Position numbers and translations under genes: made by a program
The notes under the pieces: model-generated
The model's input: only the letters and a program-made list of their open reading frames with translations
The model's database searches: none
Told to the model about the DNA's origin: nothing
Source: Bacilli bacterium
Lineage (GTDB): Bacteria > Bacillota_I > Bacilli_A > RF39 > UBA660
Length of the DNA stretch: 32,566 nt
Assembly (NCBI GenBank): GCA_028709545.1
Contig: JAQVWT010000006.1
Location: forward strand, 1 to 32,566
Direction of reading: 5' to 3'
Part shown: positions 6,453 to 22,669 of the stretch, one piece after another
Layout: every line of letters begins with the position of its first letter
How positions within the stretch are numbered: the stretch's first letter is position 1

Positions 6453-6860
6453 ATGAAAGAAAGTTTATGGGGCTACTGGATAGTAGTCCTCGGATTGTTT
6501 ATTTTAGTTGTGATGATGCTTCTTCAAAATTATACAACAACTAATCAACAAGATTATTATTTGCTTAAAGAAGTAACTGATGCAGCAATGGAAGAATCCA
6601 TTGATCTTGCTCATTATCGCAAATATGGTGAACTTAGAATAGTTAAAGAAAAGTTTATGGAAAATTTTGTAAGAAGATTTTCGGCAACAGTTAATATTAA
6701 CAAGACATATGACATTGACTTTTATGCAATTTATGAGGCACCACCAAAGGTAAGCGTTATGGTAACAACTAGTACTGAGCAATATGCTGTTATGGGAGAT
6801 GTTGATAAAATAGGGATAGTAAATAGAATAGATGCAATTTTAGAAACATATGAAAAATAG
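6453..6860 (+). CDS. Small single-TM protein, pseudopilin/TadE-like topology (possibly DUF5411-type)
   Basis: N-terminal TM WIVVLGLFILVVMMLL followed by a ~100-aa soluble domain; located in the Tad-like operon. Confidence 0.6.
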   Translation: MKESLWGYWIVVLGLFILVVMMLLQNYTTTNQQDYYLLKEVTDAAMEESIDLAHYRKYGELRIVKEKFMENFVRRFSATVNINKTYDIDFYAIYEAPPKVSVMVTTSTEQYAVMGDVDKIGIVNRIDAILETYEK

Positions 6861-6865
6861 GAGGA

Positions 6866-7690
6866 ATGAAAATGGGAAATATTGGTATATCAATTAAAAG
6901 GTTTTTAGGAAATAAGAATACGGTAACAATAATCGGGGTTCTTGCAGGAGTAGTTGTGTTATATCTTGGATATAACTGGCGAGTAAATCAAGCAGTAGAA
7001 CCACAATCAGTGCCATTTGCAAAAATGACAATTGCTGGTAATACGGAAATAACATCTGATATGATAGGTAGTATTAAAGTGTCAAAAAACATGGTCGATA
7101 CGACAAGAAATTTAGTGACATCTGCTGGTCAAGTTGTTGGTAAATATGTGAAATATGATACAACAATTCCCGAGGGAGCACTATTTTATGCAAGCCAGCT
7201 TATGACTGAAGAAGAACTTCCTAACACTGTTATTAAAGATATTCCAGAAGGCTATGCGGTTTATCCTTTAAAAGTTGATCTTCATTCAACATATGGTAAT
7301 TCAATAATGCCAAAAGATTATATTGATTTATATTTTAAGGCTGTTGATGATAATAACTATATAGTTTTTGGTAAATTTATTGAAAGTATTCAAGTACTAG
7401 CTGTAAAGGATTCAGGAGGACATCATGTATTTACTTCGTCATCAAGCGGAATACCTTCAGAGCTACTATTTGCTGTACCCGAAGATTACTTTTTATTACT
7501 TAAAAAAGCAGGATACATTAGAACCAATTCAATTGAAATAGTTCCTGTGCCAAGAAATAAAAATTATACAGATAAACCGGGTGAAACGCAAATTACAAGT
7601 GAAGAAATTAAAGCATTTATTAATGCTAAAGCAATAGATGCAAGACAAACTGATGTAGTAGAGGAAACAACTGAAGAACCGATTGAATAA
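6866..7690 (+). CDS. SAF-domain CpaB/RcpC-like pilus assembly protein
   Basis: N-terminal TM, then VPFAKMTIAGNTEITSDMI...GKYVKYDTTIPEGALFYASQL (SAF-like), followed by CpaF-like ATPase. Confidence 0.75.
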   Translation: MKMGNIGISIKRFLGNKNTVTIIGVLAGVVVLYLGYNWRVNQAVEPQSVPFAKMTIAGNTEITSDMIGSIKVSKNMVDTTRNLVTSAGQVVGKYVKYDTTIPEGALFYASQLMTEEELPNTVIKDIPEGYAVYPLKVDLHSTYGNSIMPKDYIDLYFKAVDDNNYIVFGKFIESIQVLAVKDSGGHHVFTSSSSGIPSELLFAVPEDYFLLLKKAGYIRTNSIEIVPVPRNKNYTDKPGETQITSEEIKAFINAKAIDARQTDVVEETTEEPIE

Positions 7691-7712
7691 TTAAATTTAA
7701 AGAATAAAAAGG

Positions 7713-8786
7713 ATGGAAAAAATGAACGACACAATATTTTCACAATTAGATTTTGGTCCATTAAATGAATTTTTAACCGACGATAACATTACTGATATAT
7801 CATATAGTAATGGTGGGCAAGTCTGGTTAAAAACCCTCGACAAAGGTGTTTATAAAATTGAAAGACCTGGGGTAAATAATATTTTAATGGAAAAACTAGC
7901 CTTTCAATGTTCCAATGTTATGGGGAAAACCTTTAATATGGCTCATCCTTTTTTGGACGCAGAAAGTGCAGAACTTCGTCTTAACTTTATTCATGATTCT
8001 ATTGCAACCAATGGTATTGCGTGTGTTATTCGTAAGACGCCAGCTAAAATAAGATTAAATAAAGAAAAATTATTAAATGAGAAATATTGTATTTTGCAAA
8101 TCCATGATTTTTTAGTTAAGTGTGTTGAAGGACACTGTAATATTATCGTTAGTGGTGAAACTGGTTCAGGTAAAACAGAACTTGTTAAGTATCTAGCTAG
8201 TCATACTAAAGAGAATGAAAAAATTATTACGATTGAAGATACTTTGGAACTTCATCTTGATCGGATTTTTCCACATCGTGATATTGTTGCGATGAAAACT
8301 AATAATATTGCCTCATATTCAGATGTACTTGTAACATGTATGAGACAAAACCCAAGATGGATTTTACTATCAGAAGTTCGTTCTGCAGAAGCAGTTATGG
8401 CCGTGCGAAATTCTATTTCATCAGGACACAATATATTATCAACAATTCATTCTGATAAAGCTGAAAGTATTCCTATGCGTATGTATTCATTACTTGAAGG
8501 AAGCCAAGATATTGATCAATTTCTAGCATCAATTCATAGATATGTACAGTTAGGTGTATCAGTTAAAGGTTATATGAGTAAAGAACTCGGACGTTTTCAA
8601 AGAGAAATCGTTGAAGTTTGTGAATTCTTTGTCGATGAAGATAATGTTGCTCGTAAAAATATAATTTATAAAAAAGCTATTAGTGGGGGATTTGCTTTAA
8701 AAAATCCATCTAAGCATTTACTTGAATATTTAAGTTTACAAGGTATTAATTTACCAGTAGATACATTTGGCATAGAACAATCGTAA
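7713..8786 (+). CDS. CpaF/TadA-like type II/IV secretion ATPase
   Basis: Walker A GETGSGKTE, IEDTLEL, WILLSEVRSAEA, ISSGHNILSTIHSD motifs. Confidence 0.93.
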   Translation: MEKMNDTIFSQLDFGPLNEFLTDDNITDISYSNGGQVWLKTLDKGVYKIERPGVNNILMEKLAFQCSNVMGKTFNMAHPFLDAESAELRLNFIHDSIATNGIACVIRKTPAKIRLNKEKLLNEKYCILQIHDFLVKCVEGHCNIIVSGETGSGKTELVKYLASHTKENEKIITIEDTLELHLDRIFPHRDIVAMKTNNIASYSDVLVTCMRQNPRWILLSEVRSAEAVMAVRNSISSGHNILSTIHSDKAESIPMRMYSLLEGSQDIDQFLASIHRYVQLGVSVKGYMSKELGRFQREIVEVCEFFVDEDNVARKNIIYKKAISGGFALKNPSKHLLEYLSLQGINLPVDTFGIEQS

Positions 8787-8799
8787 AGGAGGCCTTACT

Positions 8800-9693
8800 A
8801 TGGAACTAGTAATTCTAATATTAATTACAATTTTTATTATAACTTACCGTAAAAATACTGGTGATAATTTCTATAAATTTTTAATGAATGAAATTAATAG
8901 TGTTTATGAAAAATATGCACCATATAGTTTTCAAATGGTTAGAGAAAAGACCAAAGAACTAGGTCAAGAATATACGGCAAAAGAATATATTTCTCAAGTA
9001 ATTATATTTGGTGCTGCTGGTGCAGGTATTGCTTATTTATATTTCTCAAGTATTTTATGGGCGATTATTTATGCAGTAGCGGCTATTGCGTTTATTCCCT
9101 ATCTTGCCTATCTAAGAAGTCAAAGAATCTATAGTGAGTTTCTTTTTGAGCAAATTCAAGTATATACAACCAATGTTATTATGGAATTTAATACTACTCA
9201 AAGCTTTGTTAAAGCCCTTGAAGGAGTTCTTGAGTCAGGAGTTTTAGAAGATCCTGTTAAAAGTGATGTTAAATTAATGATTGATTTATCATATCAAAAT
9301 GGAACTATTGATGAATCAGTTGATTACTTCAATGAGAAATATCCTTATTATATGGTTAGAAATATGCATCAATTATTTTTACAAATTACTAAGGAAGGTG
9401 CTAAAGATTCAGGTGAATCACTTGAGAATATGCTTCTTGATATTGATATGCTTGTTGAAGGAGTTTACCGTGATAAAATGGATCGATCAGCATTTCATAA
9501 AAAGTTTTTAACTTTTGGTTTTGCTTTATATCTTTTAGTAATGCTTACGCAGTTTTTACTAGGAACTGAAAATTATATTAAAATGCTTGATGAATGGTAT
9601 GTTCAAGTACTTCTTCATTTAATTTTAATAATAAATACTTACTTTCTATTGTCAGGTGAAAAATTTTATAATGAAGATACGGGGGCTGAGTAA
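8800..9693 (+). CDS. TadB-like inner membrane platform protein
   Basis: Position after CpaF-like ATPase; TM pairs flanking a helical cytoplasmic domain. Confidence 0.7.
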   Translation: MELVILILITIFIITYRKNTGDNFYKFLMNEINSVYEKYAPYSFQMVREKTKELGQEYTAKEYISQVIIFGAAGAGIAYLYFSSILWAIIYAVAAIAFIPYLAYLRSQRIYSEFLFEQIQVYTTNVIMEFNTTQSFVKALEGVLESGVLEDPVKSDVKLMIDLSYQNGTIDESVDYFNEKYPYYMVRNMHQLFLQITKEGAKDSGESLENMLLDIDMLVEGVYRDKMDRSAFHKKFLTFGFALYLLVMLTQFLLGTENYIKMLDEWYVQVLLHLILIINTYFLLSGEKFYNEDTGAE

Positions 9694-9695
9694 TT

Positions 9696-10487
9696 ATGTT
9701 AATTGAAGTTTTAATATTAGGAGTCCTTTTATATATAATTCTTGAATATAACGGTAGTATTAGTACTAATAAATTTATTATTGATAATTCAGATATCTTT
9801 ATCAAATTAAAAGAAAAAGACTATGAGTTTTATGCTAAAGCTAAATATGGAGATACTATTGATGTTGATAAGTTATTTAATGTCCGTCTTAGAAATGGGT
9901 TATTAGTAATAATTGTAATGATTTTCTTATTTATAACCGATCTTAACTATGCTAATATATTATTTTGTATTATTGTTGGTTATGGGATGTTTAAGTTATC
10001 TTATATTCAGTTAAAGAAGTATTATAATGCTCATTTACATAAGATTGATTTAATGCTTCCATATTATTTAAAAAATTTAGAAATATTAATTCAGCATTAT
10101 ACAGTGCCAGTAGCGCTTGGTAAATCAGTTGATGAGGCACCTGAAATATTTAGAGAAGGTTTAAGAATGCTAATTGAAAAAATAAATGCTGGTGATTCAA
10201 CAATTGAACCATATATGCAGTTTGCTAGAGATTATCCAGTCAGAGATTCAATGAGAATGATGAGACTACTTTATCGTCTATCCCTTGGTAGTAATGAAAG
10301 AAAACAAGAGCAATTACTTACTTTTTCAAGGAATATTTCAAATCTTCAACAAAAGGCTAGAGAATCTAGATATAAAGAAAGACTTGAAAAGATGGAAAGC
10401 AAAACAATGATTATGTTAGTTACTACGGGAGTAGGAGTAATGGTTTTACTAGTAATATCGATTTTAATGATGTTTACAGCTGCTTAA
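9696..10487 (+). CDS. TadC-like (T2SS F-type) membrane platform protein
   Basis: Follows TadB-like gene; N- and C-terminal TMs; KARESRYKERLEKMESKTMIMLVTTGVGVMVLL typical of T2SSF C-terminus. Confidence 0.72.
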   Translation: MLIEVLILGVLLYIILEYNGSISTNKFIIDNSDIFIKLKEKDYEFYAKAKYGDTIDVDKLFNVRLRNGLLVIIVMIFLFITDLNYANILFCIIVGYGMFKLSYIQLKKYYNAHLHKIDLMLPYYLKNLEILIQHYTVPVALGKSVDEAPEIFREGLRMLIEKINAGDSTIEPYMQFARDYPVRDSMRMMRLLYRLSLGSNERKQEQLLTFSRNISNLQQKARESRYKERLEKMESKTMIMLVTTGVGVMVLLVISILMMFTAA

Positions 10488-14802: not shown

Positions 14803-16104
14803 ATGAGGAAAAAAGAAGAAAAAGTAAATCCAATACTTGGTAGAGCTGATAAAACTCTTGATTTGATTAAATTCAATGTTTTATCAGAAAAAGACCAGCA
14901 TCTAGAAATTGAGAATATTTTAAAAGAAATATATCAATCAGATTTAGAAGTAAATAAAAAACATATTTATAAATGTATAAAACTTACATATAATCCCAGA
15001 GATGATTATACTTTTTTGCCTCATAGTTTAAAAGTTTCAAAAGAAAAATTAACTTTAAAGTTTACAATTGAAGAAAAAAAGACAATTAGTAGAAATTGGA
15101 TTATATTTTCGATTTGGTTATTTTTATTTGCACTCGCAGGTGCTACTTATGCTGGTTTTGCATATCTTAGCGTTGCATCCTTAAATAAAGATATTGATGG
15201 AGATGGAATCCCAGATATTAATATTGATATTAATAAAGATAATATTCCTGATATTAATATTGATATTAATGGGGATGATAAACCTGATATTAATATTGAT
15301 TATAAAGGAAATAGAAAAGCAAGATTTAATATTGATTCAGATGGAGACGGTAAAGCTGATACTAACTTAGTAAATTATGCAGTAGGAGATTTGTGTGGTA
15401 CTTGCACTATTAACTGTGATACTAATGGTGATGGCTGGCCAGATTTAAATTTTGATATTGATGGTGATGGAATCCCTGATTTAGATATTGATACAGATGG
15501 AGATTGTGCACCAGATTTAAATCTTGATTTGAATGGTGATGAATTATGTGACTTGTTTTGTGATACTGATGGAGATTTGATTTGTGATACTAATTGTAGT
15601 AAACCGACTCCACCAGAAGATGAAGATGATGATAACAAAATAGGAACGGGAACATCAATTGAAACTGGAAATTCAGGAGTTGAAACATCAACCCCATATA
15701 TTATAATTCATTATTCAGATGGTGAGACCATAAATGTAACTGGTCTTTTACCAGAAGATCAAGTTTTAATGCCAGGTTATGTTCCTAGTGAAAAACCAAT
15801 AAAAGAATTTACTGTCGAGAATTTATCTGATTATCCTTTAATGTATAATTTATCGTGGAAAGTAGAAAAGAACACATTTGTTACTGACAACTTAAAATAC
15901 AATATAATCGGGACGAATGGAGCACCTAATTTCTCAGCCAAAACAACCCCTAAATTAACAGGTGAAATAGTTCAAACCAATATATATATACCACCAAGAG
16001 TTATTCATAAATATACAGTTGAAATATATTTATATGGTACAGGAGCACCACAAAATGAAGATCAAGGTAAGGTCTTTATTGGAAATCTAGAAATATCAGT
16101 TTAA
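14803..16104 (+). CDS. Single-pass surface protein with TSP3/EF-hand-like Ca-binding repeats and C-terminal beta-sandwich-like domain
   Basis: Cytoplasmic N-terminus, TM WIIFSIWLFLFALAGATYAGFAYL, ~10 copies of D-x-(D/N)-G-D-x-x-P-D-x-N-x, then FTVENLSDYPLMYNLSWKV... Confidence 0.82.
   Translation: MRKKEEKVNPILGRADKTLDLIKFNVLSEKDQHLEIENILKEIYQSDLEVNKKHIYKCIKLTYNPRDDYTFLPHSLKVSKEKLTLKFTIEEKKTISRNWIIFSIWLFLFALAGATYAGFAYLSVASLNKDIDGDGIPDINIDINKDNIPDINIDINGDDKPDINIDYKGNRKARFNIDSDGDGKADTNLVNYAVGDLCGTCTINCDTNGDGWPDLNFDIDGDGIPDLDIDTDGDCAPDLNLDLNGDELCDLFCDTDGDLICDTNCSKPTPPEDEDDDNKIGTGTSIETGNSGVETSTPYIIIHYSDGETINVTGLLPEDQVLMPGYVPSEKPIKEFTVENLSDYPLMYNLSWKVEKNTFVTDNLKYNIIGTNGAPNFSAKTTPKLTGEIVQTNIYIPPRVIHKYTVEIYLYGTGAPQNEDQGKVFIGNLEISV
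15190..15600 (+). repeat. Coding array of ~10 degenerate 36-bp units (12 aa DxDGDGxPDxNx)
   Basis: DIDGDGIPDINI / DINKDNIPDINI / DINGDDKPDINI / DSDGDGKADTNL / DTNGDGWPDLNF / DIDGDGIPDLDI / DTDGDCAPDLNL / DLNGDELCDLFC / DTDGDLICDTNC. Confidence 0.9.
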
Positions 16105-20828: not shown

Positions 20829-20858
20829 CTATATTAGATGATAACAAAGGAGATGCTT

Positions 20859-22610
20859 ATGAAAATAAAAGGCTTTAAAATATCAAGAAGAAAAGCAATT
20901 ATTTATTTAACATACGCTGTTATTGTCATGTTAGGTATTGTTTTAACTAGCACTTTCAGTGACTTTACAAGTAGAAGTGAAGGTGAGGCTGCTAATATAA
21001 AAGTAGCAGGTATGAATTATAATGTTAAAATAAATGGAATAGATACTAAAATAATAACTGCTCCCGGTAATAAAGATACGATAGCAAACGTTATAATAAT
21101 ATCTCAAAATACAGTAGATTCAAAATATGAACTTATTTATAAAGTATGTTCAGATTCATCATGCACAGCATATATAGCAAAGCCAGAAGATTTATATATA
21201 GAATACTCATCAAAAACAACAGATGAAGTTAGTGGAGCAATTACTAGTTTAGGTGCTAAACAAATAAGAATAGCTGTAATTAATACAAGCTCAACAACAT
21301 ATTATGTTGAACTTGATATCAATGCAGGCTATATCCACAATACTCTAGCACTTAAAAACCAAATAGCTTCTGAATATAATGAAGAAGATGTAACAATAGC
21401 CGCTATTATAGATGGGGATCTATCAACAACATTTCCAACAACAAAAGAATATATAGCAACAGTAGAATGTGAGACAAACAAGGGAAAATCAAACGCAAGT
21501 GGAACAGCAACACGGAATGGTACAAAATGGGTAGTAGATATAATTGGCACCGATTCAGGTAAGACTGTTTGTAATGTATATTTTAATGAGCCTACCTTAA
21601 GAGATAAGATTTTATCGCAAGGTGGAGGAGCAACAGTAATTGAGGCCAAAGGCACTCCAGACTTTAGTGTTATAAATGTCCCAAGTGGATTATACGCATC
21701 TGCAGATGAATATGGTACCTCATATTATTATCGTGGAGTTAAAACTGAGCTTGATAATAATTTAATCTGGGGAGGCTTCCAGTGGAAGTTGGTCAGAATC
21801 AATGGAGATGGATCTATAAGACTTATATATAATGGAACAGCGGCACAGTTTGATACAAACGGAACAGTCAATGATATAGGACTCGATACACAAATAGAAG
21901 AAACTCATGCCTGGAATGAAACAAATAGAGACGATGCCAAATATATTGGATATATGTATGGAGGCGCCAATGGAAGTGCATCCACATCAAGACATGGAAG
22001 TATACCAACCGCAGCTACCTACAATCAAACCAATACCAATATGAAAACAATACTAGATAATTGGTATAAGATTAACATATTTGATAAAGGCTTAGGATCC
22101 CAGGTAGCAGATAATCTATTTTGTAATGACCGACAACTTCAAAGTGAGGTAGGTGGAGGATCAACAGGTACTGGTATAGGAACTAGTGTGACCTATTATG
22201 CCGCATATTATCGTTTATATAAACTTAGCACAAAATCACCAACCTTAAAATGTGGATTACAAAATGATCAATTTACCATCAGTGTGGATGGAGAAGTAGG
22301 AAATGGAGCCCTTACTTATCCAGTGGGGTTGTTAACAGCAGATGAAGCATCAATGGCAGGCTTAGTATATGGAATAGCTAATAGTACAAATTATTTATAT
22401 ACCAATCAGCATTGGTGGTTGTTTTCGCCGTTCATTATGTTCTCGTATGGGAATGCGAACGGGTGGAACGTTCTTTCGTCTGGTGATTTGTACGCCAGCA
22501 TCGTGAATAACACCTACGGGGCGCGTCTGTCCGTTTCTCTTATATCATCTACCAGAGTAACCGGAACCAGTAGTGCAAACGATCCATTCATAGTACTAGC
22601 TGTAGAGTGA
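20859..22610 (+). CDS. Secreted surface protein with C-terminal FGE/C-type-lectin-like domain; putative DGR target
   Basis: ORF-track start 20838 overlaps the SD, so ATG 20859 (AAAGGAG upstream) preferred; N-terminal TM/signal; WWLFSP...NANGWNVLSSGDLYASIVNNTYGARLSVSL C-terminus. Confidence 0.85.
   Translation: MKIKGFKISRRKAIIYLTYAVIVMLGIVLTSTFSDFTSRSEGEAANIKVAGMNYNVKINGIDTKIITAPGNKDTIANVIIISQNTVDSKYELIYKVCSDSSCTAYIAKPEDLYIEYSSKTTDEVSGAITSLGAKQIRIAVINTSSTTYYVELDINAGYIHNTLALKNQIASEYNEEDVTIAAIIDGDLSTTFPTTKEYIATVECETNKGKSNASGTATRNGTKWVVDIIGTDSGKTVCNVYFNEPTLRDKILSQGGGATVIEAKGTPDFSVINVPSGLYASADEYGTSYYYRGVKTELDNNLIWGGFQWKLVRINGDGSIRLIYNGTAAQFDTNGTVNDIGLDTQIEETHAWNETNRDDAKYIGYMYGGANGSASTSRHGSIPTAATYNQTNTNMKTILDNWYKINIFDKGLGSQVADNLFCNDRQLQSEVGGGSTGTGIGTSVTYYAAYYRLYKLSTKSPTLKCGLQNDQFTISVDGEVGNGALTYPVGLLTADEASMAGLVYGIANSTNYLYTNQHWWLFSPFIMFSYGNANGWNVLSSGDLYASIVNNTYGARLSVSLISSTRVTGTSSANDPFIVLAVE
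22413..22541 (+). other. Putative DGR variable region (VR)
   Basis: ~50% GC and ~18% A over 22441-22500 in an otherwise ~30% GC region; consecutive TAC GCC AGC ATC codons; followed by conserved-type VNNTYGAR. Confidence 0.72.
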
Positions 22611-22650: not shown

Positions 22651-22669
22651 CCCGAAAAACATTTCCGGG
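22651..22669 (+). other. GC-rich hairpin CCCGAAA-AACA-TTT(C)CGGG just downstream of the target gene
   Basis: Inverted repeat with 4-nt loop and one bulged C; about 110 nt after VR. Confidence 0.55.

Follow-up and report, generated by a model that had tools for sequence, protein, structure and literature searches.

The 3' end of the gene at positions 20859-22610 of the window (the whole 32,566-nucleotide stretch of Bacilli DNA analysed here) is almost certainly a variable region (VR) of a diversity-generating retroelement (DGR), the matching cassette of which is absent from the assembly and the present copy of which does not appear to have been rewritten recently. Its variable codons fit a putative template repeat (TR) of the form ...GGN AAY YTN AAC AAC AAY AAY GTN AAY AAY... 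with randomised adenines, and TRs of such form adjoin YMDD-containing reverse transcriptases (RTs) with Avd-like genes in relatives. The features concerned are the following, where G002 and G025 denote the genomes of two relatives.

20859..22610, + strand: proposed DGR target gene, encoding 583 aa from the ATG at 20859
21588..22607, + strand: C-terminal module of the encoded protein, member of a paralogous family that is matched 9 times in the source genome
22410..22547, + strand: DGR variable region, defined by differences at codon positions 1 and 2 among three paralogues, which coincide with adenines in the TRs of G002 and G025
22491..22502, + strand: hypervariable codons TAC GCC AGC ATC, opposite AAC AAC AAC AAT of the G002 TR
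22518..22547, + strand: near-invariant GC-rich 3' end of the VR, near-identical in the three paralogues except at 22528 and 22532
22651..22669, + strand: imperfect inverted repeat CCCGAAAAACATTTCCGGG, 3' of the stop codon of the target gene

The sequence-only reading of this DNA had placed a VR at 22413-22541. A VR is indeed found there, although the span is slightly too short: the 5' limit lies at or before 22410, and the conserved GC-rich 3' part extends to about 22547. Recounting returns exactly the values it had given for GC (31/60 at 22441-22500 and 28/60 at 22501-22560) and for adenine (11/60 at 22441-22500), and its four consecutive NNC codons are correctly placed at 22491-22502. The GC content amounts to 65/129 (50%) in 22413-22541, against 539/1575 (34%) over the rest of the target gene. 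This jump is likely to reflect the VR having the composition of a GC-richer TR, with the remainder of the gene being AT-rich like the genome, and it is missing from most modules of the family that show no sign of homing.

Within the genome, GGGGCGCGTCNGTC, from the GC-rich 3' end of the VR, is confined to the window VR and its paralogous VRs, and a homing-initiation (IMH-like) site would be expected within 22518..22547. The CCCGAAAAACATTTCCGGG inverted repeat is a possible homing hairpin, and the paralogue on contig C32 has a perfect 7-bp stem with a 4-nt loop at the same distance from its VR; in both cases this is 109 nt beyond the VR, outside the range of 4-34 bp for hairpins in published DGRs (PMC3240598). 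No hairpin with a GC-rich stem of 7-10 bp and a 4-nt loop could be found downstream of the VR on contig C13. As stated earlier, the window contains no RT ORF or TR, and comparison of the window with itself reveals no partner repeat for the VR. Elsewhere in the window, the gene order at 6453-10487 (a SAF/CpaB-like protein, a CpaF-like ATPase and two TadB/TadC-like membrane proteins) resembles, as judged by eye, that of a Tad-type pilus, and the ORF at 14803-16104 contains tandem Asp-rich repeats of the D-x-D-x-D-G type at 15181-15594.

The source assembly, which comprises 1.15 Mb in 80 contigs and is 95.8% complete, was searched piece by piece. The same 3' end as that of the window gene is found on C32 and on C53/C13, the latter being a single gene split over two contigs, the overlap of which inside the VR is exactly 127 bases long (L021:1-127 and L023:1-127). 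The ends of C53 and C13 were discarded as evidence of VR polymorphism, as the overlap shows only branching of the assembly graph; strain variation or repeats may account for contigs ending inside these VRs. A further contig end, that of C6 (L159), has 29 bases identical to the end of the TR on contig C63, again possibly reflecting strain variation or repeats. More distant copies are found on C35 and C70, each with a gene of two tandem modules; at L022:189-2819 and L024:2473-4626, two VR-type modules follow each other within one protein.

In the three close copies (window, C32 and C53/C13), NNC/NNT codons vary at their first and second positions, and the surrounding bases are almost fixed. The counterparts of the codons at 22491-22502, for example, are GGC TAC AGC GTC on C32 and GGC AGC GAC AGC on C53. 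The differences at codon positions 1, 2 and 3 of the VR number 15/13/4, 14/16/3 and 12/10/1 in the three pairs of paralogues, while the pooled flanks differ by 8/6/10, 6/7/17 and 7/8/13 (Fisher p = 0.03, 9e-5 and 0.001, the three pairs being mutually dependent). This codon-position pattern of the VR is beyond chance. Two VRs in another genome, G006, differ by 12/9/0 over the three codon positions and the preceding 150 bp by 11/6/19, as is expected if the VRs were overwritten from one template.

The variable columns coincide with the adenines of TRs in relatives, which upholds the adenine-directed origin earlier proposed for the NNC codons. In G002, a member of the same genus, a cassette of MutS_I-like, Avd-like and RT (YMDD) genes adjoins uvrB, and the TR (L084), which lies upstream of the cassette genes, reads SPYNFNGSNANVWNVNSTGNLNNNNVNNSNALRPAIS. 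The VR of this genome is on a separate contig, beside thiI, and 19 of its 20 mismatches with its own TR are at TR adenines. Taking as variable those columns that differ among the three paralogues of the source genome, alignment of the window VR to the G002 TR finds adenine in 19/21 variable columns against 5/42 constant columns (Fisher p=1e-9), and the same test with the G025 TR finds it in 19/21 and 4/42, respectively (p=3e-10). Shifting the TR alignment by 1-9 bases causes the match between adenines and variable columns to be lost. The run of AAC codons that had been predicted for the template is observed as AAC AAC AAC AAT in the G002 TR, and the run also occurs in TRs of other genera in the family.

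A TR was also inferred by writing A at the variable sites of the three VRs, and is hereafter called W-type (window-type). When compared with 386 genomes of the family, it has matches in 41, and several of the loci examined, in other genera, prove to be genuine TRs adjoining YMDD RTs. Relative to the inferred TR, adenines are kept at 26/26 positions and other bases at 44/65 in the TR of G121 (L165), with corresponding values of 25/25 and 41/61 in G111 (L167) and of 25/25 and 34/56 in G169 (L172). As BLAST scores matches at adenines and at other bases equally, this excess of adenines is not an effect of the search. Mismatches between the local TR/VR pairs are likewise concentrated at A, with 19/20 in G121, 20/22 in G111 and 22/25 in G169. 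The call of a VR at the 3' end of the window gene is thereby borne out both by its paralogues and by the TRs of relatives.

Under the proposed mechanism, TR RNA would be copied by an adenine-error-prone RT acting with Avd, and in some relatives with a MutS-domain-I accessory, and the cDNA would then have acted in trans, replacing the ends of a number of dispersed target genes, the window gene among them. An origin without a DGR would instead invoke the usual divergence of paralogues, positive selection or gene conversion between lectin-like domains, and recombination among copies is conceivable in so large a module family, which is represented in all eight genomes of the genus that were checked. 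Such processes are nevertheless a very improbable source of variation that falls on the TR-adenine columns of another species, that avoids third codon positions, unlike the variation in the flanks, and that leaves the intervening bases unchanged; they are already contradicted by the alignment to the G002 TR and by the W-type TRs found in other genera. There is even less reason to believe that horizontal transfer brought in the GC-rich tail, with its NNC codons reflecting the codon use of the donor. A GC step from 34% to 50% does exist, but DGR-type paralogues of several genomes show it at the corresponding position, while in most other members it is absent or small, and the 150 bp 5' of the VR are 94% identical, in frame, between the window and C32; the paralogue alignment as a whole contradicts such an acquisition. 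The VR core has no match among viral contigs, and a tblastn comparison of the target protein with phage and plasmid records returned no match, hence there is no sign of a phage-borne system.

In the list of open reading frames, that of the target gene opens at an in-frame ATG at 20838 (590 aa), while the start at 20859 is plausible because AAAGGAG is found just 5' of it. The frame remains open through 22610 and is therefore intact across the VR. The protein consists of an N-terminal hydrophobic segment, likely to be a signal or anchor, a middle region and a C-terminal module of approximately 340 aa with the VR at its end. Between 4 and 17 matches to the module family are found in each of seven other genomes of the genus, and 21 relatives were aligned. 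Searches of the protein against Pfam and NCBIfam families gave no matches, a DUF6273 domain staying below the Pfam cut-off. An AlphaFold2 model of the module (mean pLDDT 85, pTM 0.88) has no match below E 0.001 in the PDB, the many C-type lectins being weak matches at E of about 0.5-3, and DUF6273 proteins of a viral structure library are matched at E 5e-4 to 8e-3. The resemblance of the tail to C-type lectins suggested from the sequence finds weak structural support in these DUF6273-like and C-type-lectin matches. The tail probably presents a variable face for ligand binding on a C-type-lectin-like (DUF6273-like) module exposed at the cell surface, the surface role being suggested by the hydrophobic N-terminus.

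Two DGR cassettes are present in the source genome, on C63 and C80, both of TR types other than W. The former comprises a TR, the translation of which ends SFRPGVRVA, followed by a MutS-domain-I-like gene, a weakly Avd-like gene and a gene for a 369-aa RT with YMDD; the best PDB match of this RT is 8ub7 (E 3e-49), presumably the RT of the Bordetella phage DGR. All 13 of the mismatches between the C63 TR (L018:60-215) and a VR on C64 (L160:3585-3712) are at TR adenines, which shows that writing in trans occurs in the source genome, for a target family different from that of the window gene. More distant copies on C6, C71 and C35 also match this TR. In the C80 cassette, a TR is accompanied by two VRs side by side, with 15/17 and 16/20 of mismatches at A. 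Its RT (L019:3763-4740, - strand) has no YxDD, since it shows an in-frame gap of 32 residues against a 66% identical RT of G003 that has YMDD; this deletion may represent a recent loss or a misassembly, or the cassette may be served by another RT.

The FGE-type TR of C63 and the TR of C80 were both rejected as templates of the window VR, each being a sequence of another type. The inferred W-type TR and the 3' core of the VR match the source assembly only in VRs, with no cognate TR detected, and no third RT is present in its contigs. The DGR RTs that do occur elsewhere in the genome, on C63 and C80, accompany TRs of other types. The remote (trans) location proposed for the target is supported. 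As the assembly is incomplete, the absence of the cognate TR is unproven; moreover, published remote and leftover targets also have no nearby or matching TR (PMC4891356), and so its absence bears on the activity of the system rather than on the status of the VR.

A C-to-T difference is seen at each of five non-adenine sites of the window VR (22420, 22436, 22488, 22508 and 22528). A fresh copy of the same TR would not show these, which suggests that the window copy has not lately been rewritten. By comparison, C32 and C53 agree at non-adenine sites except at 22450 and 22532, and the simplest reading is that these two stem from a more recent round of writing, from one template, and the window copy from an older round. 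Whether the W-type cassette has been lost from the lineage or is missing from the assembly is an evenly balanced matter. The chances are therefore equal that the window gene is a leftover target with a now frozen VR, as was judged for the remote SP32 target of Treponema denticola (PMC4891356), or that a live cassette lies outside the assembly. Loss is favoured by the lack of both a W-type TR and a third RT from an assembly of such completeness, by the C-to-T changes, by the breaking of an RT in G003 by stop codons and by the presence of family modules with no detected RT in 5/8 genomes of the genus (83-90% complete). Against this, C32 and C53 differ only at the two sites above, which are doubtful as template adenines, suggesting that one template wrote both of them recently, and the end of two contigs of this 80-contig MAG inside one such VR indicates that repeats of this kind are hard to assemble. 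An RT is detected in 3/8 of the genus genomes and family modules in 8/8. The G003 remnant (G003:C12:9890-10851, L150), which contains several stop codons and is 48% identical to the G002 RT, represents a decayed cassette, near which no W-type TR was found. It appears unlikely that the DGR parts are pooled within the genus, with modules spreading independently of cassettes and one live C63-type RT serving other templates in trans, including that of C80 and perhaps an unassembled W-type.

Remote targets and leftovers without a matching TR have already been published (PMC4891356, PMC7517822), and the window VR adds another case. In T. denticola, remote DGR targets are found together with the SP32 leftover, which fits a TR type absent from the genome (PMC4891356), and the present system is alike in its dispersed targets, surface-directed proteins, 3'-end VR and missing TR type. 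It differs in that the accessory in T. denticola is HRDC (PMC4891356), whereas the relatives here carry Avd-like genes and some a MutS-domain-I gene, and in having a Bacilli MAG as its host. Both MutS domain I (MSL) and Avd have been described before as DGR accessories (PMC10053308). The dispersed paralogous lectin-type domains with TR-like 3' VRs are also reminiscent of the remote variable proteins of cyanobacterial DGRs, but these are mostly predicted to be cytosolic regulators (PMC7517822), whereas the window protein has a hydrophobic N-terminus. Gut-phage DGR targets have their VR in the C-terminal part of a DUF6273 domain with a C-type-lectin-like model (PMC10743442, PMC11792537). The window gene shares with them the C-terminal VR and the structural match of its module; however, they are phage proteins, and the window gene has neither a phage or plasmid match nor a DUF6273 domain above the cut-off. 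With the DGR of the Bordetella phage BPP-1, the present system has in common that the target gene has its 3' end replaced in an adenine-directed manner and that the RT is accompanied by Avd. In BPP-1, VR, TR, Avd and RT are found together, whereas the target described here has no linkage to a cassette, and the hairpin beyond its VR is imperfect and lies 109 nt away.

These results show that a single target is enough for a DGR VR to be recognised even when no cassette is visible near it, and that searching with a template derived only from VRs can lead to real templates of other genera. In this small-genome Bacilli lineage, target modules are far more widespread than cassettes, and it offers a system for studying the gain, retention and abandonment of remote targets.
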